Assembly (NCBI GenBank): GCA_900321605.1
Contig: ONWR01000011.1
Coordinates: 56,212 to 96,272 of the forward strand
Direction: 5' to 3'
DNA: 40,061 bases
DNA from: an uncultured Bacteroidales bacterium
GTDB taxonomy: Bacteria; Bacteroidota; Bacteroidia; Bacteroidales; Paludibacteraceae
The stretch's first letter is position 1, and each line of letters begins with the position of its first letter. Made by a program: the position numbers and the translations under genes. Below are positions 6,326 to 36,050 of the stretch, one piece after another. The notes beneath the pieces were generated by a model that ran no database searches, had not been told where the DNA came from, and saw only the letters and a program-made list of their open reading frames with translations.

Positions 6326-6432
6326 AATACTGGTGCTACATATAGGTGGTACATATAGCATACGCGTAACACCTTTTTGTAACACCCTAACAATTTAAAA
6401 TTTATCAATTTAACAATTTAACAATTATACTT

Positions 6433-6753
6433 ATGTGTACCTTTAATGACCTCTGGGCGCTGCTCCGTCAACATGGGTCCAGCCCCAAACAAGAAATCGA
6501 GTGTAACGAACTTTGGAATTCCTACAAACCGGAACTACAACAGTTTATCTTCGACACTATTCGTACTAAACTCGAGCAGAACAAATTTGTGCATTACAAT
6601 CCGATGAAAGCTATACAAGAAAACGCAAGAATACCACGCAAACAAATGCTTTCATACAAGGCCTACTATGCACGATATGGTACTACGATACCTCAAGATG
6701 GATGGAAAATGGTAAATCCGACTGGACAGAATGTATTTTATATTAAAACATAA
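6433..6753 (+). CDS. Small 106-aa protein, function unknown
   Basis: ATG 6433 follows AT-rich 8-bp repeats. The product begins MCTFNDLWALLRQHGSSPKQ and contains ELWNSYKPELQQFIFDTI, KFVHYNPMKAI and a C-terminal YYARYGTTIPQDGW with NPTGQNVFYI. It is soluble and has no signal peptide. The type is, from memory, a recurring uncharacterised Bacteroidales small protein, possibly DNA-associated given its basic helices, but no motif confirms a function. It heads the array of small genes and may be co-transcribed with the next. Confidence 0.6.
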   Translation: MCTFNDLWALLRQHGSSPKQEIECNELWNSYKPELQQFIFDTIRTKLEQNKFVHYNPMKAIQENARIPRKQMLSYKAYYARYGTTIPQDGWKMVNPTGQNVFYIKT

Positions 6754-6776
6754 ACTGCCTTTCTAATCCCATTAAC

Positions 6777-6809
6777 GAGACCACATCGCGACCACATCGC
6801 GACCACACC
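6777..6809. repeat. Three tandem 11-bp repeats, possible operator
   Basis: Units GAGACCACATC, GCGACCACATC and GCGACCACACC follow each other exactly, 41 bp before the start at 6850. The 11-bp period is close to one DNA turn, so copies face one side of the helix. Confidence 0.6.
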
Positions 6810-6849
6810 GAATAATTACAAATTTGTGCTCACATCAAATGTCATTTTT

Positions 6850-7047
6850 ATGAAAGTCATACCCATTTTACCTATCGACTCCATTTCCGGCAAATTATAC
6901 GGAAAAGATAGTTTCTACTTCCGCAAATCACGCAATGGCAAAATTTACGCATGCCGCTGTCCGGATCGATCTAAACACATCAAAACCAAAGCCGAAGCCG
7001 AAAACCAACTACGCTTCGCACAACAATACGCAAAAAAATCAATTTAA
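6850..7047 (+). CDS. Small SISGK-motif protein 1 (65 aa)
   Basis: ATG 6850 (MKVIPILPIDSISGKLYG) is preferred over a GTG 24 bases upstream, because the aligned neighbours begin shortly before the same I-DSISGK motif. The order of landmarks is I.SISGK, then YFRKSRNGK.Y, then a basic turn with Pro, then an AE...RFA helix. This is shared with the products at 7076, 7775 and 8465 and suggests one small-protein family amplified in tandem. The stop codon lies in an 8-bp repeat that bridges to the next gene. The proteins look soluble and basic; a nucleic-acid or structural role is a guess. Confidence 0.6.
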   Translation: MKVIPILPIDSISGKLYGKDSFYFRKSRNGKIYACRCPDRSKHIKTKAEAENQLRFAQQYAKKSI

Positions 7048-7075
7048 CATTTTAACAATTTAACATTTAACAACT
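7041..7075 (+). repeat. AATTTAAC-type linker repeat at a gene junction
   Basis: The units AATTTAAC, ATTTTAAC, AATTTAAC and ATTTAAC run from the stop codon of the gene at 6850 (TAA in the first unit) to the ATG at 7076. Confidence 0.7.
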
Positions 7076-7336
7076 ATGGCACGTATCATCTTAGAGTCAT
7101 TCATCAAGTCCATTTCTGGAAAAGTTGGAAACATGTATTTCAAAACATATGCCAACGGGCGTATCACTATGACGACCGCGCTACCGAGTAAACGATCCAC
7201 TCCTTGCTCCGAAGCGGAACGCAAATCAAAACAACTCTTCGCTAAAAGAGCTGCTATGGTTAGAAAACTAAAAGTACAGTTCCCCGGCAAATCCGACAAA
7301 GAACTATGGACTATTGTTAAACAACTTAACGATTAA
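7076..7336 (+). CDS. Small SISGK-motif protein 2 (86 aa)
   Basis: The product begins MARIILESFIKSISGKVGNM, followed by YFKTYANGRITM, a proline-containing basic turn, EAERKSKQLFAKRAAMVRK and a short C-terminal helix. The opening resembles small Bacteroidota proteins of the type M-A-R-I...G-x-S-G-K-V-G (DUF6266-like), a family without assigned function; the match is from memory and loose. It is spaced four bases from the next start and joined to the previous gene by a repeat linker, so the three genes are probably one operon. Confidence 0.6.
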   Translation: MARIILESFIKSISGKVGNMYFKTYANGRITMTTALPSKRSTPCSEAERKSKQLFAKRAAMVRKLKVQFPGKSDKELWTIVKQLND

Positions 7337-7340
7337 CTGC

Positions 7341-8411: not shown

Positions 8412-8447
8412 CCTTATGTACATTGTACATTGTCCATTTGTACATTT
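8412..8447 (-). repeat. GTAC-box repeat, intergenic copy
   Basis: This copy of the 31-35 bp repeat (CCTTATGTACATTGTACATT, then GTCCATTTGTACATT) precedes the gene at 8465. It is the only copy outside a coding region. It is oriented opposite to the downstream gene, unlike the genic copies. Confidence 0.7.
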
Positions 8448-8948: not shown

Positions 8949-8950
8949 TT

Positions 8951-8985
8951 GACCAACGACTAACGACTAACGACTAACGACAAAA
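8951..8985. repeat. Heptad array (GACTAAC units)
   Basis: Five 7-bp units (GACCAAC, GACTAAC three times, GACAAAA) lie between a terminator and the korA promoter. Confidence 0.8.
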
Positions 8986-9009
8986 AATTTTAAATTTTTA
9001 ATTTTTTTC

Positions 9010-9067: not shown

Positions 9068-10957
9068 GTGAAACATATTGTAGTTCGATTTTGCGGAGAT
9101 TCGGGTGATGGCATGCAGCTGACAGGTAACATGTTTGCCCAATTGGCTGCGGAAATGGGTCATGAGATCTCCACTTTGCCGGATTTTCCGGCAGAGATTC
9201 GTGCGCCGCAAGGTACTTTAGGCGGCGTGAGTGCTTTCCAAGTAGAGCTGGGTAGTGAGGTATATACCTCGGGTGACAAAGCGGATGTGGTCGTAGCGAT
9301 GAATGCGGCGGCATTGAAAGTGTGTGCGTTAGGTTCGCATTTCAATCATCCGCAGGCGCATTTTGACGAAGCGTTCTCGTTGTTCCATCGCAACGCCATC
9401 GTGATCGTGGACACCGACTCGTTGACGGACAAAGACTTGGAGAAAGCCCTCTATCACACGGATAACCCCTTCACGGAATTGGGGCTTCCGGAGAGTGTGC
9501 AGATCGTGCCGGTGGCGCTGACGACGCTGACCAAAGAGGCACTCAAAGACAGCGGCATGGACAACAAGTCCGTGCTCAAATGCCGGAATATGTTCGCCTT
9601 GGGTCTGATCTATTGGCTGTTTGACGAACCGATGGAGAAAGCAATCCATCTCTTGGAAGAGAAATTCAAGAAGAAAACGGCTTTGATAGCTCCGAACACG
9701 AAAGTGATGGTCGATGGTTATAACTATGGTCAGAACCTTGCTCTCAATGTGCAGCAGGTGCGCTTGGACGGAGACAAATCTCAAATCTCAAATTGCAAAT
9801 GTCAAATGCCCGCAGGGCATTATACTTCGATTGCTGGTAACAAAGCGACGGCGTGGGGTTTGATTGCGGCGGCAGAGAAAGCCGGAAAGAAACTGTTCTT
9901 GGGTTCGTACCCGATCACCCCTGCGACGGATATTCTGCATGAGTTAGCAGCACGCAAAGATATGAACGTTATGACTGTGCAGGCGGAGGATGAGATTGCC
10001 GGTGTTTGTACAGCTATCGGCGCAGCTTTCGCCGGTGACCTCGCTTGTACCTCGACTTCCGGTCCGGGTCTGAGTCTCAAATCCGAAGCGATCGGTTTGG
10101 CAGTGATGGCTGAGTTGCCGTTGGTGGTGATCGATGTGCAGCGCGGCGGACCGAGTACGGGACTGCCGACCAAGACCGAGCAGACGGACTTGCTGCAAGC
10201 TCTCTATGGGCGTAACGGTGAGTGTCCGGCGGTGGTGATCGCCGCTTCGAGCAGCGCGAACTGCTTCGATTATGCGTACCAAGCATGTAAGATCGCTCTG
10301 GAGAACATGACGCCGGTTATTTTATTGACGGATACCTATTTGGCGAACGGATCAGCCTTGTGGCGGATACCGAAATTGGCGGAACTGCCGGAGATCAAGC
10401 CGCAGAGTGTGCCTGAGGAACTGAAAGGACATTATAACCCCGCGTTGCGTGACGAACGCGGTGTGCGTTATTGGGCGTACCCGGGCATGGAAGGGTACGA
10501 GCATCGTAACATCGGTCTGGAACGCGATGCTGCCAAAGGAACCATCTCCACGAACCCCGAGAACCACGAACAAATGGTTCTTGCCCGCAAGCATAAGATT
10601 GAGCAGATTGCCAATACCATTCCGGAGTTGAAAGTAATTCGGTCTAACGACCAACGACCAACGACCAACGACCTTTTATTGGTAGGCTGGGGTAGTACAG
10701 AAGGTCATCTGCACGCTGCGGCGAATGAGTTAGGCTGCGATTTGGCGCATTTCAATTATATATGCCCGCTGCCGAAGAACACGCGCGAGGTGCTCAGTCA
10801 ATACAAACGTATCATCGTTTGTGAACTGAACACAGGTCAGTTTGCAGCGTACTTGCGTGCGCAGTTCCCGGATCTGAAGATCGAGCAGTACAACGAGATT
10901 CAAGGACAGCCGTTTGCTGTTGAACGCATCGTGCGCTACGCGCAAACAGCGATTTGA
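9068..10957 (+). CDS. korA: 2-oxoacid:ferredoxin oxidoreductase, fused gamma/alpha subunit
   Basis: KorA works with KorB to convert 2-oxoglutarate (or a related 2-oxoacid) and CoA to the acyl-CoA, CO2 and reduced ferredoxin in the cytoplasm. The 629-aa product has the gamma domain first (RFCGDSGDGMQLTGNMFAQ, about 1-190) and the alpha/pyrimidine-binding domain after about 250 (KLFLGSYPITPATDILHEL, then the TSTSGPGLSLKSEAIGLA motif). GTG 9068 is preferred because a TTG ten codons upstream would lie inside the promoter. Two stretches encoded by 7-bp repeats interrupt the usual linkers at about residues 237-247 and 526-535. The stop codon lies within the first unit of the repeat that leads to korB. 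KorA and KorB lack ferredoxin domains, as is usual for the two-subunit enzyme. Confidence 0.92.
   Translation: MKHIVVRFCGDSGDGMQLTGNMFAQLAAEMGHEISTLPDFPAEIRAPQGTLGGVSAFQVELGSEVYTSGDKADVVVAMNAAALKVCALGSHFNHPQAHFDEAFSLFHRNAIVIVDTDSLTDKDLEKALYHTDNPFTELGLPESVQIVPVALTTLTKEALKDSGMDNKSVLKCRNMFALGLIYWLFDEPMEKAIHLLEEKFKKKTALIAPNTKVMVDGYNYGQNLALNVQQVRLDGDKSQISNCKCQMPAGHYTSIAGNKATAWGLIAAAEKAGKKLFLGSYPITPATDILHELAARKDMNVMTVQAEDEIAGVCTAIGAAFAGDLACTSTSGPGLSLKSEAIGLAVMAELPLVVIDVQRGGPSTGLPTKTEQTDLLQALYGRNGECPAVVIAASSSANCFDYAYQACKIALENMTPVILLTDTYLANGSALWRIPKLAELPEIKPQSVPEELKGHYNPALRDERGVRYWAYPGMEGYEHRNIGLERDAAKGTISTNPENHEQMVLARKHKIEQIANTIPELKVIRSNDQRPTTNDLLLVGWGSTEGHLHAAANELGCDLAHFNYICPLPKNTREVLSQYKRIIVCELNTGQFAAYLRAQFPDLKIEQYNEIQGQPFAVERIVRYAQTAI
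9775..9809 (+). repeat. Heptad array inside korA (CAAATCT units)
   Basis: Five exact 7-bp units (CAAATCT, CAAATCT, CAAATTG, CAAATGT, CAAATGC) encode KSQISNCKCQM between the gamma and alpha domains, where homologues have a short linker. Confidence 0.85.
10644..10673 (+). repeat. Heptad array inside korA (CCAACGA units)
   Basis: Four units (CTAACGA, then CCAACGA three times) encode SNDQRPTTND before the LLLVGWGSTEGH strand. Confidence 0.85.
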
Positions 10958-10986
10958 AATTTGACATTTGAAATTTGAAATTAACA
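10952..10986 (+). repeat. Heptad linker between korA and korB (ATTTGAA units)
   Basis: ATTTGAA, ATTTGAC, ATTTGAA, ATTTGAA and ATTAACA run from the korA stop (TGA in unit one) to the korB ATG. Confidence 0.85.
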
Positions 10987-12029
10987 TGGAAGCATCTCAA
11001 TTTAAATCTGATCAATATGTACGTTTCTGCCCGGGTTGCGGCGATCATGCTATCTGTATGGCGCTGCAGAAAGCGATGGCGCAGATAGGTGTTCCAACCC
11101 ACGAGGTGGCAGTGATCTCCGGTATCGGTTGTTCAAGCCGTATGCCGCACTATCTGAACACGTACGGTTTTAATACGATCCATGGTCGCGGTGGTGCGAT
11201 CGCAACCGGCGTCAAGACGGCGCATCCCGAACTGACCGTTTGGCAGATGAGCGGTGACGGTGACTGTCTCGCTATCGGTGGTAACCATTTCATCCATGAG
11301 ATTCGGCGAAATGTAGATCTCAACCTGTGCCTGTTCAACAACCGTATCTACGGTCTGACCAAAGGTCAGTACTCACCGACGAGTCCGAAAGGTTTTGTCA
11401 GTAAGTCTTCGCCGTTCGGCACGGTAGAGCGTCCTTTCGTTCCGGCACAACTTGTCTTAGGCGCAGGCGGTACGTTCTTTGCCCGCACGCTGGATGTCGA
11501 TATGCCGACTACGGTCGATTGTCTCGTAGCTGCGCAGCAACATAAAGGCTGCTCGGTTGTGGAGTGTCTGGTGAACTGCGTGATCTTCAATAACGGCACG
11601 CACGCATGGATAGCTGATCGTGAGCAACGCGCCGAGCATAGTATCATCTTGAAACACGGCGAGAAGATGATTTTCGGTGCTAACAAAGATAAAGGTTTGG
11701 CGGTGGAGATTGACCCGCAGACCTTTGTGCCGAAGATCATCGTGGTGCCTGCGGACGATCCGCGTGTGCTGACGCACGATGCGACACAAGCCGACCCGAC
11801 GCTGCATCGTCTCTTGGCGCTTATGGGACAAGACAGGTATCTCAATGTACAAATGGACAATGTACAATGTACAAAGGATGAGTTGCCGATTGCTTTAGGT
11901 GTGATCCGCAGCGTAGAGGCGGAGACCTATAACGAGGCGGTGAATAAGCAGATTGCTGCGGTACGCGAGAAAGCGAAAGCAAAGACTTTCGATGAGCTGA
12001 CAACTACGCTCGATACTTTCCTTCTGTAG
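10986..12029 (+). CDS. korB: 2-oxoacid:ferredoxin oxidoreductase, beta (TPP-binding) subunit
   Basis: This 347-aa subunit binds thiamine pyrophosphate and the Fe-S cluster of the KorAB enzyme. Visible landmarks are [11 protein letters not shown] near residue 17, [17 protein letters not shown], the TPP/Mg motif [16 protein letters not shown] with [13 protein letters not shown], and SPTSPKG. ATG 10986 lies at the end of a heptad linker from korA, so both are one transcript. A GTAC-box repeat inserts about ten residues ([13 protein letters not shown], about 288-297) in the C-terminal part. The 3' end overlaps the converging rsgA gene by 26 bp, an unusually tight junction. Confidence 0.93.
11845..11878 (+). 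repeat. GTAC-box repeat inside korB
   Basis: The coding strand reads GTACAAATGGACAATGTACA, then ATGTACAAAGG. It encodes [10 protein letters not shown]. Confidence 0.85.
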
Positions 12030-13035
12030 TGTCGTCGAGAATCGACAGATAGGATTCATAGCGGGAGATAGCGATGTCTCCCGTTATTATTTTTTGCTGC
12101 ACTGCGCAACCCGGTTCGTTGGTGTGCGTGCAGTTGGAGAAACGGCATTCTTGGGACGCGCGGAAAATCTCGGGGAAGAAATGACTCACCTCTTCGCGCT
12201 CAAAATCAATCGTACCGAAACCTTTGATACCCGGTGTGTCGATTATCCAACCTCGTACGTCGGCCTTTGTACATTGTACATCGTCCCTTTGTCCATCCAA
12301 CTCATACATCTCTGAGAAAGTGGTGGTGTGCATGCCTTTGTCGTGGGCATCGGAGATCTTGCCTGTACGCGTGAGTTCGCGACCGAAGAGGGCATTGAGA
12401 AGCGTACTCTTGCCGACACCCGAGTTGCCGGAGAGCAAGGTGACCTTGCCTGCAAATAAGGAGTTTATTGCACTTCGTGCGTTTGAGCCTTCGGCGTTTG
12501 AAGCTTCGCTGTTTGAGGTTGCGCTGTTGAGATCAAGGGCGGAGAGTGCGAGGGTCTCGTAGCCGATGGATTCATAAAGCGCGCGGAGGTCGGCGAGTTG
12601 TGCGAGTTCTTCGTCCGTGAGAAGGTCAATCTTATTAAATATAAGGATCGCGCGCACGCGATAAGCTTCGCAGGTAGCTAAGAAACGATCAATGAAAGTG
12701 GTGCTCGTCACCGGATGATTGACGGTAACGATGAGTGCCACTTGGTCAATGTTCGCCGCAAGAATATGACTCTCCTTACTGAGGTTTGTTGATTTGCGGA
12801 TGATATAATTCCTCCGCTCCTCCACATCGGTTATCCAATAGACGCTATTCCCGTCTTCCTTTGTACATTGTACCTTGTCCCTTTGTACATTCACATAGTC
12901 TCCGACGGCGACGGGATTAGTGGAACGGATACCACGAATGCGGAAGTTGCCTTTGATACGGCACTCCACATTCGTACCATCGTCCAAACGGACGATGTAA
13001 CTGCTACCCGTTGATTTAATGACGAGACCTCTCAA
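12004..13035 (-). CDS. rsgA: Ribosome small-subunit-dependent GTPase A
   Basis: RsgA is a circularly permuted GTPase that helps 30S subunit maturation. The 343-aa product has an N-terminal OB fold ([18 protein letters not shown]), the permuted GTPase domain with FNKIDLL (G4), the [15 protein letters not shown]-loop (G1) and DTPGI (G3), and a C-terminal zinc knuckle ([14 protein letters not shown]). The start is TTG 13035, supplied by the last unit of an upstream heptad repeat; no ATG is suitably placed. The protein is longer than the usual 300 or so residues because of three repeat-encoded insertions: [12 protein letters not shown] (about 49-59), a 5-residue repeat [15 protein letters not shown] (about 168-185) and [12 protein letters not shown] (about 246-257). 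Confidence 0.93.
12264..12297 (-). repeat. GTAC-box repeat inside rsgA, copy 2
   Basis: The plus strand reads CCTTTGTACATTGTACATCG, then TCCCTTTGTCC. The coding strand gives [11 protein letters not shown], between the switch region and G3. Confidence 0.85.
12481..12525 (-). repeat. Three 15-bp tandem repeats inside rsgA
   Basis: Units GTTTGAGCCTTCGGC, GTTTGAAGCTTCGCT and GTTTGAGGTTGCGCT encode a 5-residue repeat (SN-x-x-x) just before the P-loop domain. Confidence 0.8.
12858..12891 (-). repeat. GTAC-box repeat inside rsgA, copy 1
   Basis: The plus strand reads CCTTTGTACATTGTACCTTG, then TCCCTTTGTACATT. It encodes [12 protein letters not shown] in the OB-fold domain. Confidence 0.85.
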
Positions 13036-13174
13036 TTTACAATTTACAATTCACAATTCACAAAGGGCTTACGTAGTTTGGTACGAATTTTTAGAGTCCG
13101 TACGGACTTTTCAGTTTGTACAAAACCCTATAGGACGCTTTGTTAATTGTACATTGTGATTTGTTAATTAATCA
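13033..13174. repeat. Palindromic intergenic element, copy 1
   Basis: This element fills the frr-rsgA junction. It is bordered by heptads (ATTTACA/ATTCACA units on the left, ATTGTACATTGTG on the right) and centred on the perfect palindrome AGTCCGTACGGACT at 13095-13108, followed by TTTTCAGTTTG. Its reverse complement aligns over most of its length with the element at 23650-23785. Confidence 0.7.
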
Positions 13175-14599: not shown

Positions 14600-14658
14600 T
14601 TTAGTCTTTTGTCTTTTAGCAGCTTCGCTGCGGTCTTTACTCTTTTAGCGAAGCGGTC
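14600..14658 (-). repeat. Stop-linked GCGGTC module with heptads upstream of pyrH
   Basis: On the plus strand TTTAGTC, TTTTGTC, TTTTAGC, AGCTTCGCTGCGGTC, TTTACTC, TTTTAGC and GAAGCGGTC follow without gaps. They fill the entire junction from the pyrH ATG to the stop codon of the upstream gene, which overlaps the last two bases. Confidence 0.8.
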
Positions 14659-17055: not shown

Positions 17056-17059
17056 AATA

Positions 17060-17087
17060 TTCATTGTTCATTATTCATTGTTCATTA
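17060..17087 (-). repeat. Heptad linker (TTCATTG/TTCATTA units)
   Basis: Four alternating units, TTCATTG and TTCATTA, join two lipoprotein genes. The last contains the stop codon of the upstream gene, and the first contains a possible ATG of the downstream one. Confidence 0.8.
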
Positions 17088-17861
17088 TTTCACGCGGTAG
17101 AACCACCAGTATTTGTATTCGGTCGTGCTGCTACCGGGGATGGGTTGATAGCCACGCAGAATCTGCATCCAGTTCTTGGTGAGGGGTTGTACGGTGATGC
17201 GGTCGTTCTCATCGATAAGCAGATACTCCAGCGGGTTATTCACGAAATTGAGTCCGTAGTCCCAACTCCACGTACCGGTCTTGGTCTCGCCGGAGAACCA
17301 ATCTTTGTAGATACAGGTGCCGTCCTCTTTGAATTCCCAAGTCTCCACCCAAGGATTACTGCCCTCGATGTACCATGAAGAGCCGTACATAGAATGACTA
17401 TCCATGACATAGTACGCATGTTTCCAAGTACCTACAAAATCGGAAGCTTTGATGTCCATGATCTGGTTCTCTATATCCAGTGCGGGAAGTTGGCACAGAT
17501 AGATATCCGTACCGCGAGCCTGCAGATGTGCCCAACCTTTTTTCAGTCCTGCAATCGTGAACTCCTCACCACGGAAGATGAGTTTGCCGTCCTTGAACGA
17601 GTATTCTGAGGTGTCGTTGTCGAACGTAGCCAGATTATTCTTCAATACGCGGATGAATCCGTGAGGCGGACGCTGTTTCTCACCACCGGCAAAGCAGGAG
17701 TCAATACGCCACATCGTATTGGGGTAGTCTGCCGGGTTTACATCCGTTGTGATCTCTTCCGTGTTAGTCGGTTCGTCACTCTTCTTGTCTTTCTTGTCGC
17801 AAGATACAAATGCCAATACACTGGCTACCAGCACAAAGGCGAAAAATATGAATTTTTTCAT
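17085..17861 (-). CDS. Lipoprotein of the CDKK-type (258 aa)
   Basis: The start at ATG 17861 (MKKFIFFAFVLVASVLAFVSC) is preferred over an upstream frame extension, because it gives a proper signal peptide nearly identical to that of the next gene upstream. After the cysteine and a DKKDKKSDEPTNTEE linker, the mature protein has two beta-rich parts with TMWRIDSCFAGGEK, VGTWKHAYYVMD, TWEFKEDGTCIYKD and TGTWSWDYG. The V-G-T-W...G-T motifs resemble lipocalin-like DUF domains, which bind small hydrophobic ligands, but this is only a resemblance. It is twice the length of its neighbours, possibly by domain doubling. Confidence 0.75.
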   Translation of the reverse strand: MKKFIFFAFVLVASVLAFVSCDKKDKKSDEPTNTEEITTDVNPADYPNTMWRIDSCFAGGEKQRPPHGFIRVLKNNLATFDNDTSEYSFKDGKLIFRGEEFTIAGLKKGWAHLQARGTDIYLCQLPALDIENQIMDIKASDFVGTWKHAYYVMDSHSMYGSSWYIEGSNPWVETWEFKEDGTCIYKDWFSGETKTGTWSWDYGLNFVNNPLEYLLIDENDRITVQPLTKNWMQILRGYQPIPGSSTTEYKYWWFYRVK

Positions 17862-21754: not shown

Positions 21755-21791
21755 AATTGTCTATTGTCTGTTGTCTTTTAGCGCAGCGGTC
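21755..21791 (-). repeat. Stop-linked GCGGTC module with heptads (AATTGTC units)
   Basis: On the plus strand AATTGTC, TATTGTC, TGTTGTC, TTTTAGC and GCAGCGGTC fill the junction completely, from the ATG at 21754 to the stop codon at 21794-21792. Confidence 0.85.
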
Positions 21792-23644: not shown

Positions 23645-23785
23645 AGTCAAACAATTTATAATTTATAATTCACAAATTACAAAGCGTCCTACAAAGTTCT
23701 GTACAAAGATATGAGTCCGTACGGATCTTTTCAGTTTGCACCAAATTCCGCGAGCCCTTTGTGAATTGTGAATTGTGATTTGTTA
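23645..23785. repeat. Palindromic intergenic element, copy 2
   Basis: This element lies between waaA and hisS. Heptads of ATTTATA/ATTCACA type on one side and TGTGAATTGTGAATTG on the other enclose a core with AGTCCGTACGGA at 23714-23725 and TTTTCAGTTTG. The outer part AAAGCGTCCTA matches the reverse complement of the far side of copy 1 (TAGGACGCTTT), and GAGCCCTTTGTGAATTGTGA matches that of the near side. Confidence 0.7.
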
Positions 23786-25139: not shown

Positions 25140-26186
25140 ATGAAAAAATCAACCGTTATATTAGCCATCGAGAGCAGTTGTGACGATACATCGTCAGCAG
25201 TCATTGTAGATGGTATCTTGCGCAGCAATGTGATTGCGTCGCAGAAGGTACATGAGGAGTTCGGAGGCGTAGTGCCTGAGTTGGCGAGTCGTGCCCATCA
25301 GCAGAATATCCTGCCGGTAGTGGACACCGCGCTCAAGCGTGCGGGGGTGACGAAAGAGGATATCTCGGCAATCGCTTTTACCCGCGGACCGGGATTATTG
25401 GGTTCGCTTTTGGTCGGCACGTCGTTTGCCAAAGGTTTGGCGCTCTCGCTCAATGTGCCGATTATTGATGTGAACCATCTGCAGGGTCACGTGTTAGCGC
25501 ATTTCGTGGAGGACGGAACCGGTCTGCTGCATCCCTCTTTTCCGTTCTTGTGCCTCTTGGTCAGCGGTGGAAACAGCCAGATCGTGCTGGTGAAAGCGTA
25601 TAACGAAATGGAGATCATCGGTCAGACCATTGATGATGCTGCCGGTGAGGCATTCGATAAATGCGCCAAGGTGCTGGGTCTGCCTTACCCGGGAGGACCG
25701 TGGATAGACAAACTTGCCAAGCTTGGCGATGCGACCAAATATCCGTTTGCCAAACCCAATATCGCGGGCTATGACTACTCGTTCTCGGGGCTCAAGACCT
25801 CGTTCCTCTATACGCTCCGCGATTTGCTGAAGGCGCACGGTGTGGAGACGATCGATGAGTTGGCACAAAAGATACCTAATCTGCGGGAAGATATGTGCGC
25901 CAGTTTGCAGGCTACGGTAGTGGATATCTTGATGAAGAAACTCAAGAAAGCAGCGAAGGACTTAGGTATCTCGCAGGTAGCCGTTGCAGGAGGTGTGAGT
26001 GCCAATAGTGCGCTGCGGCAGGCATTCATCGACTACGGAAAGAAATACCATTGGGAGGTCTTCATTCCGCCTTTTAGTTTCACCACCGATAATGCGGCGA
26101 TGATTTGTCAGGCAGGTTATTTTAAATATTTAGGAAAAGAATTTTGTGCCATCGACGAAGTGCCGTTTGCGAAGACGCAAATATAG
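25140..26186 (+). CDS. tsaD: tRNA N6-adenosine threonylcarbamoyltransferase
   Basis: TsaD transfers threonylcarbamoyl to A37 of ANN-decoding tRNAs. ATG 25140 (MKKSTVILAIESSCDDTSSA) is chosen because an upstream in-frame ATG at 25098 lies inside the promoter. The 348-aa protein has the metal-binding HxxxH (DVNHLQGHVLAHF), the ATPase motifs of the ASKHA fold (LLVSGGNSQIVLV, DDAAGEAFDKCAKVLGLPYP) and the C-terminal VAGGVSANSALRQAF with FTTDNAAMI. All expected residues are present. A heptad linker beginning in its stop codon leads to the exosortase gene. Confidence 0.97.
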   Translation: MKKSTVILAIESSCDDTSSAVIVDGILRSNVIASQKVHEEFGGVVPELASRAHQQNILPVVDTALKRAGVTKEDISAIAFTRGPGLLGSLLVGTSFAKGLALSLNVPIIDVNHLQGHVLAHFVEDGTGLLHPSFPFLCLLVSGGNSQIVLVKAYNEMEIIGQTIDDAAGEAFDKCAKVLGLPYPGGPWIDKLAKLGDATKYPFAKPNIAGYDYSFSGLKTSFLYTLRDLLKAHGVETIDELAQKIPNLREDMCASLQATVVDILMKKLKKAAKDLGISQVAVAGGVSANSALRQAFIDYGKKYHWEVFIPPFSFTTDNAAMICQAGYFKYLGKEFCAIDEVPFAKTQI

Positions 26187-26219
26187 TTGAGAGTTGAATG
26201 TTGAAAGTTGAGAGAAGTG
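26185..26219 (+). repeat. Heptad linker between tsaD and the exosortase gene (AGTTGAG units)
   Basis: AGTTGAG, AGTTGAA, TGTTGAA, AGTTGAG and AGAAGTG start in the tsaD stop codon (TAG) and end at a possible GTG start. Confidence 0.85.
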
Positions 26220-28621: not shown

Positions 28622-31275
28622 ATGAATTTTCCGGTGATGCTTTTGGGGTTGTTGCGCAGGTCTTCGACCGTTCCTTCGGCGACCACGGTACCGCCTCCTC
28701 GTCCGCCTTCGGGACCCATGTCGATGATCCAGTTACAAGCGCGGATGACATCGGTGTTGTGCTCTATAATAAGGACGGTGTTACCTTTCTCCACTAACCG
28801 ACGCAGCACGCCTAAGAGCACGCGGATGTCCTCAAAATGCAGACCTGTCGTCGGTTCGTCTAATATATATAAGGTCTTACCCGTGGACGGACGGGAGAGC
28901 TCGGTCGCTAATTTGATACGCTGACTCTCACCGCCGCTGAGGCTTGTGGACGATTGACCAAGTTTGATGTAACCGAGTCCGACGTCTTGGATCGTTTTGA
29001 TCTTACGAAGGATCTTCGGCTGCGGCTCGAAGAACTCCACGGCTTGGTTCACCGTCATCTCCAAGATGTCAGCGATGGTCTTACCTTTCCACCGCACTTC
29101 GAGGGTCTCACGGTTGTAGCGCTGACCGCCGCACACTTCGCAGGGCACATACACATCCGGCATGAAATGCATCTGGATCGTCTTGTAGCCGTTACCCATA
29201 CACTCCTCGCATCGTCCGCCTTTGGCGTTGAACGAGAAACGACCTGCTTTCCATCCTCGTATCTTCGCTTCCGGCAGCTGGGCAAAGAGATCACGGATGT
29301 CGTTGAACACATTCGTATAAGTCGCCGGATTAGAGCGAGGCGTACGACCAATAGGCGATTGATCGACATTGATGATCTTATCGATGAACTGAACGCCCTC
29401 AATGCTCTTATAGGGCAGCGGGGCAGTCTTGGAGCGATAGAACTTCTGACTCAGAATAGGGTAGAGCGTCTGGTTGATCAAGGTGCTCTTTCCACTGCCG
29501 CTCACACCGGTCACGCAGACCATCTGACCCAACGGAATCTTCACCGTCACGTTCTTGAGGTTATTCCCCGTACATCCGCTGAGGGTGATGAATTGTCCTA
29601 CAGCGTCAGCGGTCTTACAGTGCAACGGTCCTACAGGCGAAGCCGGTCTTACAGCCTTATCTCCTCGGAGATAAGAGGCGGTCAGCGTATCTGCTTTCAG
29701 CAGATCGCTTGGCGTGCCACTAAAGAGCACATTACCGCCCAAACGACCGGCTTTCGGACCGATGTCCACGATCCAGTCTGCCTCGCGCATCATCTGCTCG
29801 TCGTGCTCCACGACGATGACGGAGTTATTCATGTCGCGCAACTCCTTGAGGCTGTCGATGAGACGTTGGTTATCGCGTTGATGCAAACCGATGGAAGGCT
29901 CGTCAAGGATGTACAGCACGTTCACCAAACGGCTACCGATCTGCGTAGCCAGACGTATTCTCTGGCTCTCACCGCCCGAGAGAGACTCGCTCGAACGGTT
30001 CAGAGAGAGATAACTCAGTCCCACCGATTGCATGAACCGAAGCCTGGTGATGATCTCTTTGAGAATAGGTTCCGCGATCGATTGCTGTTTGGAGGTAAGA
30101 CCTTCTTCGTTCTTCTCCTCTGAGGGAACTTGGAAACGTTCTAAGGTGGTGATCAACTCGTCTATATCCATCTCGGAAAGGTCAGAGATAGAGTATTTGC
30201 CAAGCCGGTAACTGAGGGACTCTTTGCTCAGACGTTTACCGTGACATTCGGGACAAACGACGTATTCCTCCTGCTCTTCCTCCTCTTCGGAGATAGTAGC
30301 TGCCGATAACTCTTGCAACTCTTCCCACCAGTTATCCTGTTGGATCGCTTCATCGAAGGTATCTGACTGCTGAAGGCTGATCTCTGAACTCTTTATTCTT
30401 CCCAGTCCTTTGCAGCACGGACACCACCCCGATGGGCTGTTGAACGAGAAAGTGTGAGGAGCAGGCTCTTGGTAGCTGAGTCCGGTCTCGGGGCACATCA
30501 GGTTACGGCTCATGAAACGGGTGTTCCCTGCTTCGTCAGCAATCATCATGATACCGTTGCCCTGCGTCATCGCACGATCCACCGACTGCCGAATACGACG
30601 TGTATCTACATCCTTTGTACATTGTACATCGTCCCTTTGTACTTTCAATCGATCCACTACCACCTCGATGCTGTGCGTCTTGTAGCGATCCAGTTTCATG
30701 CCCGCTACTATCTCTTGCACCTCGCCGTCCACACGCACATGGACGAACCCTTTCTTGCGGATCGTCTCGAAAAGCTCCTTGTAGTGTCCTTTGCGCCCAT
30801 TAACGAGAGGTGCTAACAGCAAGATCTTCTTGCCGCCGTACTCACGGATGATGAGGTTGATGATCTGCTCGTCCGTGAACTTAATCATCGGTTTGCCGGA
30901 GAGGTACGAATAGGCTTGTCCGGCGCGGGCATAGAGAAGACGCAGGAAATCATACACCTCGGTGATCGTACCTACTGTCGAACGAGGGTTCTTGGTGGTG
31001 GTCTTCTGATCAATGGAGATCACCGGACTCAGACCGGTTATCTTATCTACGTCCGGGCGTTGCATGTTTCCAATGAACCCACGGGCGTACGATGAGAAAG
31101 TCTCCATGTACCGCCTCTGACCTTCAGCGAAGATGGTGTCGAACGCCAACGAAGACTTCCCCGAACCACTGAGACCGGTGATGACCGTCAGTCGTTTGCG
31201 GGGAATAGAGACGCTGATGTTCTTGAGGTTATGCACCCTCGCGCCTATAACTTCTATGTTGCCTTCAGAAAGCAT
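28618..31275 (-). CDS. uvrA: UvrA-type excision-repair ATPase
   Basis: UvrA recognises bulky DNA lesions with UvrB. The 885-aa protein has two ABC ATPase modules: Walker A TGLSGSGKSSLAFD near residue 35 and TGVSGSGKSTLINQ in the second half, signatures LSGGESQRIRLATQIGS and LSGGESQRIKLATEL, plus the zinc modules (CPCCKGLG with CPECHGKRL; CEECMGNGY with CEVCGGQRYN). It is somewhat shorter than the usual 940 or so, and the KPMIKFTDEQ segment suggests the Bacteroidetes UvrA paralogue rather than the canonical copy. A GTAC-box repeat adds [12 protein letters not shown] at about 212-222. It lies downstream of valS, joined by a repeat-only linker. Confidence 0.92.
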   Translation of the reverse strand: MLSEGNIEVIGARVHNLKNISVSIPRKRLTVITGLSGSGKSSLAFDTIFAEGQRRYMETFSSYARGFIGNMQRPDVDKITGLSPVISIDQKTTTKNPRSTVGTITEVYDFLRLLYARAGQAYSYLSGKPMIKFTDEQIINLIIREYGGKKILLLAPLVNGRKGHYKELFETIRKKGFVHVRVDGEVQEIVAGMKLDRYKTHSIEVVVDRLKVQRDDVQCTKDVDTRRIRQSVDRAMTQGNGIMMIADEAGNTRFMSRNLMCPETGLSYQEPAPHTFSFNSPSGWCPCCKGLGRIKSSEISLQQSDTFDEAIQQDNWWEELQELSAATISEEEEEQEEYVVCPECHGKRLSKESLSYRLGKYSISDLSEMDIDELITTLERFQVPSEEKNEEGLTSKQQSIAEPILKEIITRLRFMQSVGLSYLSLNRSSESLSGGESQRIRLATQIGSRLVNVLYILDEPSIGLHQRDNQRLIDSLKELRDMNNSVIVVEHDEQMMREADWIVDIGPKAGRLGGNVLFSGTPSDLLKADTLTASYLRGDKAVRPASPVGPLHCKTADAVGQFITLSGCTGNNLKNVTVKIPLGQMVCVTGVSGSGKSTLINQTLYPILSQKFYRSKTAPLPYKSIEGVQFIDKIINVDQSPIGRTPRSNPATYTNVFNDIRDLFAQLPEAKIRGWKAGRFSFNAKGGRCEECMGNGYKTIQMHFMPDVYVPCEVCGGQRYNRETLEVRWKGKTIADILEMTVNQAVEFFEPQPKILRKIKTIQDVGLGYIKLGQSSTSLSGGESQRIKLATELSRPSTGKTLYILDEPTTGLHFEDIRVLLGVLRRLVEKGNTVLIIEHNTDVIRACNWIIDMGPEGGRGGGTVVAEGTVEDLRNNPKSITGKFI
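30612..30642 (-). repeat. GTAC-box repeat inside uvrA
   Basis: The plus strand reads CCTTTGTACATTGTACATCG, then TCCCTTTGTAC. It is identical to the rsgA copy at 12264 across the shared part and encodes [10 protein letters not shown]. Confidence 0.87.
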
Positions 31276-31281
31276 TTTTAG

Positions 31282-31356
31282 TCGTTGGTCGTTGGTCGTT
31301 GGTCGTTGGTCGTTAGTCCACTAATCCACTAATCCACTAACCCACTAATCCACTCA
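31282..31356 (-). repeat. Repeat-only linker between valS and uvrA (7-bp and 8-bp arrays)
   Basis: Five 7-bp units (TCGTTGG four times, TCGTTAG) are followed by five 8-bp units (TCCACTAA with variants). The last unit contains the valS stop codon. The junction has no other sequence except TTTTTAG next to the uvrA start. Confidence 0.9.
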
Positions 31357-33978
31357 TCCTTTCAGCGCCTTAATGGCTTCTTCGATGGAAGCAATTCTGC
31401 TCTCCGCATCGGCTTTCTTCTTGCGCTCGAGCTCAACGATCTCGGGCTTGGCGTTGGCTACGAAGCGCTCGTTGCTCAGTTTTGCCATGACGCCCTTGAG
31501 GAAACCTTGCTGGTGAGCAAGATCCGCTTCGAGTTTCTTGAGCTCTTCCTCTACGTTGATGAACGCGTCCATCGGAATAGCGAACTCGGTGGTGCCCACG
31601 ATGAACTTCGCACAGTTACCATTGGAATCGCCACTATTGGCGATTTCTACGTTGGCGAGTTTATCCACAAGCGGGTTCAGCTCAACCGGAGAGATGAGTG
31701 TCAGACGCTCTTTCTGCGGGATGTTCTTCGATGCACGCACATTACGTACGCCGGAGACAATCTCCTTCAGGGTCTCAACCTCTTTGAGAATTTCACCATT
31801 AAGCGGAGCGTCACCATTTGCATCATTGAGCGAAGCGATCATTATCGATTCACCTTCTTTACGCTCATAGAGGTTCTGCCACAGTTCCTCGGTGATGAAC
31901 GGCATGAACGGATGAAGCAGTACGAGCAAGCGGTCGAAGAAAGCGAGGGTCGCTTCGTATGTAGCGCGGTCGATCGGCTGCTGGTAAGCCGGTTTGATCA
32001 TCTCCAGATACCAGCTGCTGAACTCGTCGCAGTAGAGTTTGTAGATCTCCATGAGTGCCTCGCTCAGACGATATTTGCTGAACAGGTCGGCTATTACTTC
32101 GGAAGTCTCGCCAAGCTTGGCTTCGAACCATTCAATCGCATATTTGCTGGTCTCGGGTTGCGGGATGTCTGCTATCTCCAGACCCTTCATCATACGGAAG
32201 CAGTTCCAGATCTTATTGCAGAAGTTTCTTCCCTGCTCGCAGAGTGAATCATCATAGAGGATGTCGTTGCCTGCAGGGGCACTCAGCAGAATACCCATAC
32301 GCACACCGTCGGCACCAAAACGCTCGATCAAATCCAGCGGATCGGGACTGTTACCTAAGCTCTTGGACATCTTACGACCCAGTTTATCACGTACGATACC
32401 GGTGAAATAGACGTGCTTGAACGGCATCTTGCCGACGTACTCGTAACCCGCCATGATCATACGGGCTACCCAGAAGAAGATGATGTCCGGTCCCGTTACG
32501 AGGTCTGCGGTCGGGTAGTAATAGTTGATCTCTTTGTTGTCCGGCTTCTCGATACCGTCGAACAACGAGATCGGCCACAACCACGAGCTGAACCAAGTGT
32601 CCAATGCGCCTTCGTCTTGTACGTAGTTGCCTTCGGGTTTGGTCTCCGAAACGATGATCTTATCGTCCGGGTAGTTCTCCAAACCGGTTTCAGCGAGCAG
32701 GTCTGCGTCGTAGTATGCCGGAATGCGGTGACCCCACCAGAGTTGACGGGAGATACACCAGTCTTTGATGTTCTCAAGCCAGTTGCGGTAGGTGTTTTTG
32801 TATTTGGCGGGATAGAAAACAATCTCGTCGTTCATTACCGGCGGCAGGGCGATGTCTGCAAAGTGCTGCATCTTCACGAACCACTGAAGACTCAAACGCG
32901 GCTCGATAGGCACGTTTGTACGCTCGGAGTAACCCACTTTATTGTCGTAGTCCTCGATCTTCTCCACGAGACCCGCAGCCTGCAAATCTTCCACGATCTG
33001 CTTGCGGCAGTCGAAACGATCCATACCGTGGTACTTACGTACGTTCGGCTGCAACTCTTCCTCTACCGTGTCCATGTTCAGATGCGCATCCGGCGTGAAG
33101 ATGTCAATGGTCTTGAGGTTGTATTTCTGACCAAGAGCGTAGTCGTTCACATCGTGTGCCGGGGTCACTTTGAGGCAACCGGTACCGAAACCGATCTCTA
33201 CGTATCGGTCTTCGATGATCGGGATCACACGACCCACACCCGGCACGATCACGTGCTTGCCTTTGAGCCACTGGTTTTTCTCTTCTTTGGGGTTGATGCA
33301 GACTGCTATATCGCCGAAGATCGTCTCCGGACGCGTCGTAGCGACGATGGCGTATTTGCCCGGCTCTTCCGCTACTTCGTAACGCAGGTAGTAGAACTTA
33401 TTATGCTCATCGTGGTAGATCACCTCCTCGTCGGAGAGAGCCGTCTGACGCTCGGGATCCCAGTTGACCATTCTTAGACCGCGGTAGATAAGACCTTTCT
33501 TATAGAGGTCGCAGAAGACCTTGATGACCGCTTTCGAACGGGTCTCGTCCATGGTGAAGGACGTGCGGTCCCAGTCGCAGGAACAGCCGAGTTTACGGAG
33601 CTGCTTCAAGATGATGCCTCCGTGTTCGTCCGTCCACGCCCACGCGTGTTTGAGAAACTCCTCGCGGGTCAGGTCGGATTTATTGATACCTTGCTCCTTG
33701 AGGCGTTTGATCACTTTCGCTTCCGTTGCGATAGACGCATGGTCGGTACCCGGTACCCAGCACGCGTTCTTGCCTTCGAGACGTGCGCGACGAACGAGGA
33801 TGTCCTGAATCGTCTCGTTCAGCACGTGTCCCATGTGCAGCACACCGGTCACATTAGGTGGCGGAATAACGATAGTAAACGGATCGCGGCCGTCCGGCTC
33901 GCTATGAAAGAGTTTGTTGTCGAGCCAATACTGATACCAGCGGGCTTCGATGTCTGTCGGATTGTACTTTGCTTCCAT
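31354..33978 (-). CDS. valS: Valyl-tRNA synthetase
   Basis: ValRS charges tRNA-Val. The 874-aa class I enzyme starts at ATG 33978 ([18 protein letters not shown]); the frame is open 24 codons further but would cross the promoter. It has the HIGH-type motif ([19 protein letters not shown]), the editing domain ([14 protein letters not shown]), [11 protein letters not shown], the KMSKS loop ([16 protein letters not shown]), the anticodon-binding domain and a C-terminal coiled coil (about 800-874). All the main motifs are intact and, unlike several neighbours, no repeat insertion was seen. The promoter is at 34020-34051. Confidence 0.97.
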
Positions 33979-34019
33979 ATATTTTTTAAATTTCAGAATG
34001 CTTTTTTCAAAAACGGGTG

Positions 34020-34051
34020 CAAAGGTACGAAAAAAAAATGACATAAACAAA
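34020..34051 (-). promoter_or_regulatory. valS promoter
   Basis: On the minus strand, TTTG (34051-34048) and TACCTTTG (34027-34020) are 20 bp apart. The -33 box overlaps the terminator hairpin of the upstream gene. Confidence 0.8.
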
Positions 34052-34059
34052 TGTTTATG
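34030..34059 (-). terminator. Terminator of the vWA gene
   Basis: CATAAAC/GTTTATG (34042-34048 with 34053-34059) with an AT loop is followed on the minus strand by nine T. Confidence 0.7.
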
Positions 34060-34088
34060 CCACTTTTCTTAATCGAAGGTGCATTTTT

Positions 34089-35984
34089 TTAATGAACCAG
34101 TATTTTCTTGGTGTGCCATTGACCGTTATAGAACGCTTTGACGAAGTACACACCCGTGCTCAGCTGAGGCAGCGGTAAATGCGCTAACTGGGCGTCTCCG
34201 GCTTCCTCCAAACGACCTTCATAGACCGTGATCAACTTACCGCTGATATCCACCAGATACAAGGTGGTCGGGGAGTCTGTTACGTCGATCTCCATGAGCT
34301 CTAAATCGCTTATTTCAAATGGATTAGGCACAAACTGATCGTTCTCGTTCTCGTCCGTCTCCTCTGCCCGGTGTCCCTCGCAATTCGGCATATAGCTGAA
34401 CTCCACGATCGTCCGAACGAGCATATCGTTCAGGTGCTCCACTTTGAGGCTGTCGGTAGCGGGTTTGAGGTGCGTGTGACCGATACCCGAGTCGTCCGTG
34501 AGGAAGAACGAAGTGCCGTTGGTCGTCAGCGCGATGCTACGCATCAGATACTCGCCGCTCTTTCCCAAACCGCTGCAAACGACCGGCACGATACGTACGC
34601 CCATCGCTGCGGCGTTGAGGATCTGTTCGTGCAAGAGAGCTATCGTTGCGCTGTCTTGGTGGCAAGGCGCGTCTAAAACAAGGAACACGATGCGCGCACG
34701 TGCGTTGCTGTCAAAACCGCCGCTGTTGAGCGCCGCCATCAGCGCTTCCGGAACCGCCTCGGGGTAGTCGCCGCCTCCGTTCGCTTCCTGACGGTCAATG
34801 AACTGCTGCGTCACGCTGATGTCATCCGTCAGACGCGAGATACGCGTCAGGTATTCGTCGTAATGATGATCCCGATAGACCACCGCTCCTGTGCGGATCT
34901 CCAAACCGCCTGTCGCATCTTTCGCACGAGCGATGACATCCCGCATCTCGGCTTGCAGGTAACGCAACTCGTCACCCATCGAACCCGTGGCATCGAACAC
35001 GAACATCACATCTACCGCATCGCTCACGTCACACGGCTCGTCCAACACTACCGTCTGCCAACTCTTTGCCTCCGCCACGTAATCGCCCACACGTATCCGG
35101 AGACCTTGGACTAACGACCATCGACCAATGACCATCGACCAGAGTTCTGCCTTGCCGGTATTGTCCGTCACGGCTTGGAAGAGCGTGTTGCCGTTTCCGT
35201 CTATCAGGCTCACGTCCTGCGAAGCAATGGGATAACCGCCTTTTTGGGTAACCACCTGTACGGTGTACCGCTCACGCGGTGCTATTTTCCATTCATCGAT
35301 GAACTCACCTAATATACTATCCCGTACCATCGGCCAGAGGTTCCATTTCGCAAAGTCATTCACCTCTCCGGCAGTCAGCATGCCTGCGGAGATGTTCCTT
35401 GTGGGACCGCCCACAAAGAGCTCAGGCGTCTCTTCCAACTCGGCTTTGAAGTCCGCAAGGCTCGCTTCGGCTGCCAAATCCGTGGTCACCATCGCAGGTT
35501 CCGCCATCGGCTTCGTGTCCATCGTGCGGTAGAGTAGAGTGCCTTTCGACATCCCCTTGCCGGAACCCGGCAACCTGCCTCCGTTTCCCTCCCGCTCCGC
35601 GCCTTTCTTCGGCGTCAGACGAATGATCAGAACTCGTTCATTCGTTAACCCGTTCATTCCTTCATTCGTTAACTCGTTCACTCGTTCACTCCTTGACTCG
35701 TATCCCTCGCAGCTGACGGAAATCGTCTTGGCGTTCGCCAGACTCTCGCTTTTCACCACCGCACGACCGTCCCACGACGTGCGCAGGATACTCTTCCCGA
35801 AGCGGATCTCCGCTTCCGGCAACAAAGCCTGCGTGGTGTCCATGACCAAGATCGTCAGCTCTCCTTTAGCCTCTAACCTTTCACCTTTCACCTCTAAGCT
35901 TTTCACTTTCGCCTTGTTCAGACAAGCTTCGGCTGACCCCAAGCTCACCATCGCTGCCAATACAATAAGTACAAACTGTTTCAT
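34089..35984 (-). CDS. T9SS-exported von Willebrand factor A protein
   Basis: The 631-aa product starts at ATG 35984 (MKQFVLIVLAAMVSLGSAEA, signal peptide). Its parts are a carboxypeptidase-regulatory-like fold (TILVMDTTQALLPEAEIRFG, about 43-105), a low-complexity link, a beta region (about 230-320), a vWA domain from about 325 with the MIDAS motif VMFVFDATGSMGDELRYLQ, and a C-terminal T9SS type A sorting domain (TLYLVDISGKLITVYEG, LSTGVYFVKAFYNGQWH, about 555-631). The protein is therefore expected on or outside the outer membrane, with metal-dependent adhesion possible. Three repeat arrays lie in its coding sequence (7, 8 and 7-bp units). It stands alone, with a terminator behind it. Confidence 0.85.
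   Translation of the reverse strand: MKQFVLIVLAAMVSLGSAEACLNKAKVKSLEVKGERLEAKGELTILVMDTTQALLPEAEIRFGKSILRTSWDGRAVVKSESLANAKTISVSCEGYESRSERVNELTNEGMNGLTNERVLIIRLTPKKGAEREGNGGRLPGSGKGMSKGTLLYRTMDTKPMAEPAMVTTDLAAEASLADFKAELEETPELFVGGPTRNISAGMLTAGEVNDFAKWNLWPMVRDSILGEFIDEWKIAPRERYTVQVVTQKGGYPIASQDVSLIDGNGNTLFQAVTDNTGKAELWSMVIGRWSLVQGLRIRVGDYVAEAKSWQTVVLDEPCDVSDAVDVMFVFDATGSMGDELRYLQAEMRDVIARAKDATGGLEIRTGAVVYRDHHYDEYLTRISRLTDDISVTQQFIDRQEANGGGDYPEAVPEALMAALNSGGFDSNARARIVFLVLDAPCHQDSATIALLHEQILNAAAMGVRIVPVVCSGLGKSGEYLMRSIALTTNGTSFFLTDDSGIGHTHLKPATDSLKVEHLNDMLVRTIVEFSYMPNCEGHRAEETDENENDQFVPNPFEISDLELMEIDVTDSPTTLYLVDISGKLITVYEGRLEEAGDAQLAHLPLPQLSTGVYFVKAFYNGQWHTKKILVH
35109..35143 (-). repeat. Heptad array inside the vWA gene (GACCATC units)
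   Basis: GACTAAC, GACCATC, GACCAAT, GACCATC and GACCAGA encode WSMVIGRWSLVQG between two beta strands. Confidence 0.85.
35633..35696 (-). repeat. 8-bp array inside the vWA gene
   Basis: Eight consecutive 8-bp units (CTCGTTCA, TTCGTTAA, CCCGTTCA, TTCCTTCA, TTCGTTAA, CTCGTTCA twice, CTCCTTGA) encode VNELTNEGMNGLTNERV. Confidence 0.85.
35870..35905 (-). repeat. Heptad array near the start of the vWA gene
   Basis: CCTCTAA, CCTTTCA, CCTTTCA, CCTCTAA and GCTTTTCA encode KSLEVKGERLEAKG just after the signal peptide. Confidence 0.75.
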
Positions 35985-36000
35985 AACGTTTAATTTTTTT

Positions 36001-36050
36001 GACCGCTTCGCCGTTGGACTAACGACTAACGACCATTGACTAACGACCAA
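36001..36050 (-). repeat. Heptad array and GACCGC module upstream of the vWA gene
   Basis: GACCGCTTCG is followed by GGACTAA, CGACTAA, CGACCAT, TGACTAA and CGACCAA. Here the module is in the opposite orientation to the operon junctions. Confidence 0.75.

Follow-up and report, generated by a model that had tools for sequence, protein, structure and literature searches.

The DNA analysed here, which we call the window, is a 40,061-nucleotide stretch of contig ONWR01000011.1 from an uncultured Bacteroidales bacterium of the Paludibacteraceae, whose draft genome measures 2.3 Mb in 64 contigs and is 94.92% complete. Between its genes and also inside them, among them rsgA, hisS and uvrA, lie short tandem arrays of 7-bp and sometimes 8-bp units, drawn from a limited set of heptamer words shared among many unrelated places in the genome. 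A first-pass annotation had singled out seven gene junctions as built of such units, and all seven do lie between one gene's stop and the next gene's start. Six of them hold 7- or 8-bp units as described; the seventh, 14600-14658, is mostly a non-tandem cassette. The junctions at 10952-10986, 17060-17087 and 26185-26219 are period-7 arrays with 75-86% lag-7 matches, 7041-7075 has mainly period 8, and 31282-31356 runs first with period 7 and then with period 8. At 21755-21791 three heptamers are present, and the right half is the cassette that also makes up most of 14600-14658.

We called an array where at least 18 of 21 positions match at lag 7 (own detector), with Tandem Repeats Finder (TRF) run alongside. 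The arrays and cassettes of the window are as follows.

6388..6426, plus strand: period-8 array of TAACAATT, 81% lag-8 matches, before a small gene
7040..7073, plus strand: junction array of 8- and 7-bp units (CAATTTAA/CATTTAA), mainly period 8 (74% at lag 8), with the upstream stop (7045-7047) within the first unit and the following ATG at 7076
8417..8446, plus strand: TTGTACA-type cassette, at or just before a small-gene start
8949..8987, plus strand: GACTAAC array
9775..9807, plus strand: CAAATCT/CAAATGT array within a 2-oxoacid:ferredoxin oxidoreductase gene (POR and POR_N domains), by TRF
10641..10676, plus strand: AACGACC array, the second within the same oxidoreductase gene, encoding NDQRPTTNDL, by own detector
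10951..10983, plus strand: ATTTGAA junction array, holding the upstream stop codon (10955-10957)
11843..11874, plus strand: CAATGTA cassette within a thiamine pyrophosphate-enzyme gene, 12 encoded residues, by TRF
12264..12296 (ends approximate), minus strand: TTGTACA cassette within rsgA, 12 encoded residues, an insert relative to 1u0l, by TRF
12858..12895 (ends approximate), minus strand: second TTGTACA cassette within rsgA, 12 encoded residues, an insert relative to 1u0l, by TRF
13030..13170, unstranded: inverted heptamer arrays around the palindromic core GTCCGTACGGAC, one long hairpin of -45.8 kcal/mol
14600..14658, minus strand: junction cassette of the AGCGAAGCGGTC type, 40% matches at lag 7, no tandem array by TRF or own detector
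17058..17089, minus strand: TTCATTG/TTCATTA junction array
21755..21791, minus strand: three ATTGTCT units, then the AGCGCAGCGGTC cassette (also written TTTTAGCGCAGCGGTC)
22808..22871, minus strand: AAGTTGA array within hisS, 17 encoded residues, by own detector
23645..23790, unstranded: second copy of the inverted-array palindromic element; the comparison genome G061 has a TGAATAA array at this site
26185..26219, plus strand: AGTTGAG junction array, directly after the tsaD stop and reaching the next gene's start
30608..30650, minus strand: TTGTACA cassette within uvrA, 12 encoded residues, an insert relative to 9gxk, by TRF
31275..31359, minus strand: GTCGTTG (7-bp) and then TCCACTAA (8-bp) arrays, from the valS stop to the uvrA start
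35115..35141, minus strand: CGACCAT array within a VWA-domain gene, by TRF
35632..35709, minus strand: 8-bp array of ACTCGTTC within the same VWA-domain gene
36017..36047, minus strand: GACTAAC array upstream of that gene's predicted start, inside the longest open reading frame (ORF), 34089-36224

The first-pass annotation had missed the in-gene arrays, namely those at 10641 and 22808 (own detector) and those at 9775, 11843, 12267, 12861, 30615 and 35115 (TRF), as well as the recurrence of identical words at many loci. Several sites differ between relatives. Among 28 relatives in which both flanks of the 21755..21791 site were found, only locus L030 is closely alike; at the uvrA site 30608..30650 relatives carry the same cassette, others or none; and G061 has a CAATTTA array at the valS/uvrA junction.

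A shared vocabulary of period-7 arrays

We sampled 814,683 bp of the window's own genome, including an earlier subset of 425,225 bp, and 766,490 bp of G061, the genome that holds locus L030 and is 94.0% identical on average over 218 kb aligned. The own-genome stretches were taken from already-known contigs and are not random; array density is similar across their batches (1.92 and 1.62 per 10 kb) and in the window (2.0 per 10 kb). The lag detector finds 145 period-7 arrays in the own genome and 113 in G061, with a median length of 31 bp; the plain arrays are direct repeats. In the 425,225-bp subset 82 arrays fall at lag 7 and 17 at lag 8, and the remaining lags hold 0-11 each, apart from 14 and 21, which as multiples of 7 hold 45 and 18. 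A single second-order Markov shuffle of this subset gave no arrays at any lag, and 100 kb of E. coli K-12 no period-7 array. These zero counts rule out chance or base composition as the cause, and the arrays are genome-wide. In the full own-genome sample lag 8 yields 40 arrays, lag 16 yields 31 and lag 11 yields 21, while the lags other than 11 that are multiples of neither 7 nor 8 yield at most 14 each. Periods 8 and 11 are enriched besides 7, and periods 6, 10, 12 and 13 are low (1, 6, 4 and 2); none of 7, 8 and 11 is a multiple of three.

The 145 own arrays fall into only 48 canonical unit families, and those of both genomes into 66, of 1172 possible classes. Among the own arrays 424 pairs share a family, where 10.9 are expected from genome 7-mers or 19.7 from intergenic 7-mers, and in G061 the figure is 230 against 6.1 or 12.2. 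The first-pass annotation had read a unit that differs by locus as a sign of local expansion; the recurrence of words at many loci (424 same-family pairs against 11-20) speaks against this reading. Recurrence extends to irregular sequence. In a hand count of 25 in-gene rows from 38 matches in the own-genome sample, the string [VG]QxxxVQxTK appears in one frame at 13 gene sites, in a second frame at 5 more and antisense in 4 rows, with similar irregular strings of ~30 bp at the 13 sites; irregular 18-mers recur at 4-13 places in the same sample.

Several recurring cassettes deserve mention in their own right. A near-identical 10-residue motif, VQRDNVQCTK, is encoded in unrelated proteins by one TTGTACA-type cassette in one frame (for example at window positions 11868, 12264, 12858, 30612 and 40007). 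A cassette of ~16-17 bp, (T)TACAGCGAAGCGGTCT with a variable middle, occurs in gaps and genes (uvrA in the window), sometimes in tandem, at window positions 14647, 21780 and 29636 and in own loci L014, L154, L155 and L158. The CCTCCCCTCAAGGGAGGG cassette has 18 pattern matches on both strands of the own-genome sample, some places being counted twice, including L022:5057, L024:11050, L148:3867, L152:4046 and L157:869; strings resembling it are present in hisS or uvrA of some relatives. The commonest repeated 18-mer, AAAAAGCAGTACCTTTGC, lies at 20 places in the sample; it is promoter-like, ends in a TACCTTTGC box, and is more uniform than expected of a plain consensus promoter.

The nearest relatives by tsaD are metagenome-assembled genomes (MAGs) of uncultured Bacteroidales and Paludibacteraceae, many with titles that name a ruminant source. 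Their loci hold 1.24 arrays per 10 kb where TsaD identity is at least ~89% and 1.61 at 82-89%; more distant relatives hold 0.85, with 12 of 25 loci free of any. One word has between 0 and 71 matches per genome within the genus and is present in 44 of 81 genomes, a pattern that reads identically backwards and so makes the reversed control uninformative. The ACGACY pattern occurs in 10 of the 81 genus genomes, most frequently in the own genome, and in 3 of 247 genomes across the phylum; the word is therefore not phylum-wide. The reversed control of this pattern (AATCAGC-type arrays) turned up in seven genomes itself and is abundant in some genomes of another Bacteroidota family (G169, G188, G232 and G264), which hints at lineage-specific vocabularies.

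Arrays sit where damage would be least

Of the 145 own arrays, 78 lie in co-directional junctions, 49 in coding sequence, 8 in divergent gaps, 8 in convergent gaps and 2 at edges, where no junction class applies. Co-directional gaps hold 1.02 arrays per kb and coding sequence 0.071, a ~14-fold difference that bears out the junction enrichment first proposed from the window. In own-genome gaps of at least 80 bp, 21 of 42 arrays adjoin the upstream stop and 2 of 42 the start, with 5.9 expected for each; in the same class of gaps in G061, 10 of 31 arrays adjoin the stop and 8 of 31 the start, with 3.6 expected for each. Of the 89 stop-adjacent arrays in the two genomes, 44 enclose the whole stop codon. 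Because 7 and 3 share no factor, a heptamer array presents an identical ring of seven codons in every frame. A stop in the word on one strand therefore closes that strand in all three frames, while a stop-free word is open in any frame, a logic already noted for the repeat TAACTGA in PMC4679880. At gene ends, 42 arrays carry the stop on the sense strand alone and 9 on the antisense strand alone (P = 3e-6); within genes the balance is reversed, with 5 sense and 35 antisense (P = 1e-6).

These positions bear on the role that the first-pass annotation considered possible, that of an A-rich spacer with little structure from which translation starts in a group lacking Shine-Dalgarno sites, and equally on a role as binding sites for initiation. 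The junction enrichment and the short gaps filled from stop to start would suit such a role, as would the TAACTGA repeats of Beggiatoaceae, which according to PMC4679880 lie just before starts, and the excess of start-adjacent arrays in G061. A spacer should, however, keep a fixed position and strand relative to the start, whereas the own genome is stop-anchored, and the sense strand of the 135 co-directional junction arrays in the two genomes has no A bias (A exceeds T in 64, T exceeds A in 61). In addition, about a third of the arrays lie within genes, and close orthologs often lack the array or carry something else in its place. We therefore reject the spacer on position, strand and turnover, with the start adjacency of G061 as the contrary result, and regard it as very improbable. 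More broadly, the arrays are not a junction device and probably not a regulatory one.

Within genes, comparison with solved homologs places the inserts in one loop of HisS, two of RsgA and one of UvrA, and in EngB the array insert, 19 residues long, falls between the GKT and DLPGYG stretches, which are conserved. Arrays are also present in NadA, type II dehydroquinase and GldD proteins. The encoded peptides are hydrophilic, with a mean hydropathy of -0.94 in the sense frame versus +0.41 in open antisense frames. All 17 in-gene length differences from G061 (10 unique sites) are multiples of three, as against 12 of 44 elsewhere; a clean 21-bp gain or loss is seen at L011:2312 / L178:1903. The HisS loop carries many different cassettes, or none, in 33 relatives. 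In L030 another cassette occupies the hisS array site, with HisS 94% identical, and some HisS arrays take the native loop's place at equal length (LIEATGVKLNIELD versus ELSIVNCQLSIELD). The predicted HisS structure has a mean pLDDT of only 70, and residues 265-270 of the array-coded loop fall below 50, like several other stretches, which is weakly consistent with the segment being a flexible loop.

Turnover at orthologous sites and the origin of the arrays

The comparison of orthologous sites covers 41 of the 145 own arrays and 38 of the 113 G061 arrays with both flanks in the other sample, that is 79 rows and 50 unique sites; the own arrays are limited to 41 because just 218 kb of the two samples align. 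Eleven of the 50 sites are the same in both genomes, 13 have the same words with changed unit number or length, 8 have different words, and 18 have an array in one genome only; at some of these 18 the second genome carries an 8-bp array or a different cassette. Flanking sequence is 90-99% identical. Identity of at least 85% is reached at 11 of the 50 array sites versus 17 of 33 array-free junctions (P = 0.009), with medians of 0.56 and 0.93. Word switches also occur in locus pairs that are 97.1% (L053/L059) and 96.1% (L035/L048) identical. Change of unit number clearly occurs too, but for most changed sites local expansion fails because the word is no commoner at the ortholog than elsewhere. 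Among 35 changed rows the mean longest match is 5.0 at the true ortholog and 5.2 at other sites, revealing no local seed. This seed test and the same-genome match test below were confined to rows with under 14 bp in common with the ortholog (35 and 36 of them), in both directions, so that some sites count twice.

We consider it probable that the arrays form a population of short repeat cassettes that turns over fast, is largely neutral or slightly harmful and has no regulatory function. A copying process, which we infer, would place or overwrite sequence with words of the resident pool; our preferred guess is that, in the course of replication or repair, the template switches ectopically from one array to another. 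Slippage by whole units would then lengthen, shorten and homogenise the arrays, and selection would retain only tolerable outcomes. In genes, only an open sense strand that codes for a hydrophilic loop would pass, with length changes restricted to multiples of three; at gene ends, the array may supply the stop codon. It is conceivable, and we put this forward only tentatively, that an active process copies pool words and overwrites gaps and genes, using no known type of transposase, reverse transcriptase or end-joining system, and so fast that the word at a site changes between genomes 97% identical and essential enzymes come to carry interchangeable, lineage-specific loops. Pfam searches of the own genome returned 0 matches for Y1 transposase (PF01797), reverse transcriptase RVT_1 (PF00078) and Ku, an absence that is no proof because the genome is 94.92% complete. 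On these results we set aside three candidates: repetitive extragenic palindromes (REP/REPIN) moved by a REP-associated tyrosine transposase (RAYT), since there is no Y1 transposase and the plain arrays are direct repeats, with hairpins only in separate cores; repeats written by a reverse transcriptase, such as diversity-generating retroelements (DGR), retrons or telomerase-like systems; and Ku end joining.

Pure local slippage offers another account, in which each array grows from a resident 7-bp seed, the vocabulary consists of words that slip easily, and heptamers suit the polymerase. Heptanucleotides were the commonest long-repeat class in most genomes of one survey, with slippage proposed as their source (Mrazek 2007, as cited in PMC4679880), and the same-word changes at 13 of 50 sites and the clean 21-bp in-gene change are what slippage would leave. 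Yet same-family pairs reach ~20-40 times expectation, orthologous sites lack a seed, whole words are replaced at 97% identity, and similar irregular cassettes of ~30 bp stand at 13 gene sites. The shared vocabulary and missing seeds weaken local expansion as the sole process, the one the first-pass annotation had favoured, and we find it rather unlikely.

Composite elements leave room for a transposase. In the own-genome sample, 7 copies of a ~140-bp element have a palindromic core, TCCGTACG, with heptamer arrays reading inward from both sides (window 13030-13170 and 23645-23790, L023:5266, L026:17004, L027:1547, L145:16589 and L150:11301), and an eighth, variant copy at L155:3757 was seen with its left array. 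A different core, CATGCAAGGGCTGTC, lies between GTCGTTA-type words at 4 sites, 3 of which are arrays by our detector. The palindromic element is possibly a miniature inverted-repeat transposable element (MITE) or a bidirectional terminator; the hairpin at 13030-13170 matches no Rfam family at the gathering threshold, the only match in the window being a DUF805b cis-regulatory RNA (RF02914; 4342-4376, minus strand, 47.6 bits). One could thus suppose that a transposase moves the cassettes as MITE-like elements, the arrays being terminal inverted repeats or their remnants. Most arrays have no such core, however, the Y1 search of the own genome was empty (other transposase families were not searched), and the HisS arrays that replace the native loop at equal length are unlike an insertion with target duplication, so that we hold this account to be unlikely. 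That the arrays are an assembly artefact of metagenome bins is hardly credible: the relatives are draft MAGs and the own genome is itself a draft of 64 contigs, but at 11 of 50 array sites two separate genomes agree by at least 85%, arrays occur in loci of many differently named MAGs, and in-gene changes keep the frame.

Several observations weigh against the turnover of a copied cassette population as we describe it. Changed arrays match their own genome better in 19 of 36 rows and the other genome better in 10, which is not decisive; same-family arrays share at least 21 bp of unit order in 25% of 409 pairs versus 16% under the null, a modest excess; and at G061 L177:18303 an array looks as if it had grown out of a word that both genomes have at its edge. 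Array-free junctions vary as well (16 of 33 below 85% identity), and gain and replacement are indistinguishable because the ancestor is unknown. The start adjacency in G061 partly favours the spacer idea. Gene starts and ends come from a simple gene finder of our own, with starts uncertain, and 4 of the 49 arrays counted as in-gene sit at the very 3' end of the gene.

Apart from the arrays, the small genes lined up at window positions 6850-8850 start alike (SISGK.., SFIKSISGK.., IESMRKK.., GIDSVSGALSKPGKSG..) and may have arisen from a single small protein by copying and divergence.

Relation to known heptamer repeats

Heptamer arrays are an old observation in bacteria and, to our knowledge, still lack an agreed mechanism. 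In this genus the question can be tested: there are many sites, many words and close relatives that differ at most compared sites, and the in-gene arrays supply a built-in frame filter. From such arrays, core enzymes would keep gaining new loops and C-terminal tails. The arrays also warn that much intergenic sequence in the genus is no conserved regulation.

The short tandemly repeated repetitive (STRR) sequences of filamentous cyanobacteria are heptanucleotide tandem arrays with several words per genome, and the likeness to them drawn in the first-pass annotation holds; as in STRR and long simple sequence repeat (LSSR)-type arrays, 7-bp tandem units here are far above chance across the genome. 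Rickettsia palindromic elements are short repeats of ~100-150 bp found in frame in housekeeping genes. In-frame insertion into conserved genes, with the frame kept, is also seen here (HisS, RsgA, UvrA and EngB), but our plain arrays have a median of 31 bp and are direct repeats, unlike those palindromes.

The first-pass annotation knew of no description in Bacteroidota. MacGregor 2015 (PMC4679880) does describe TAACTGA arrays in Beggiatoaceae, Cyanobacteria and five Bacteroidetes including Paludibacter, with other heptamers in some of the same spacers, and mentions that Microcystis, Gramella, Aequorivita and Elizabethkingia carry further heptamers alongside TAACTGA. As described there, those repeats resemble ours: they are heptamers, mostly intergenic, that overlap upstream stops and carry stops in three frames of one strand, with some copies in ORFs in the open orientation and a presence that varies between relatives. 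In the main genome of that study a single word dominates, single-base variants seldom form repeats, and most sets immediately precede a start codon. The present arrays, in contrast, comprise 66 word classes in the two genomes, their words switch at orthologous sites, and about a third of them lie in genes, including essential enzymes. Most sets here are not placed just upstream of a start, as the 2 of 42 in the own genome and 8 of 31 in G061 indicate. The unit TAACTGA (canonical AACTGAT) is the consensus of none of 82 catalogued arrays and is absent from the 15 listed of the 48 families.

The GGGNATC heptamers of Xanthomonas and Nostoc (Rehm 2015, PMC4692102) are likewise mostly intergenic, lie between aligned ORFs near coding-strand stops, and vary extensively in length and sequence among close relatives; they consist of one G-rich, quadruplex-forming word, whereas ours are many, mostly AT-rich words. 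Tandem repeats of archaeal Borgs (PMC9879509) also turn over rapidly in gaps and ORFs, keep the frame, create new peptide repeats and are rarely conserved at the same loci in the closest relatives. Their ORF units are divisible by three, perfect, and described as arising independently. Our units are 7 bp long, imperfect, shared across loci and carried on a bacterial chromosome; only their total length changes are multiples of three. A literature search, with subscription papers largely outside it, returned no account in Bacteroidota of interchangeable heptamer words at orthologous sites or of heptamer arrays within essential enzymes. Heptamer arrays as such are thus already known, while the interchangeable words and the in-frame turnover in essential genes look new.

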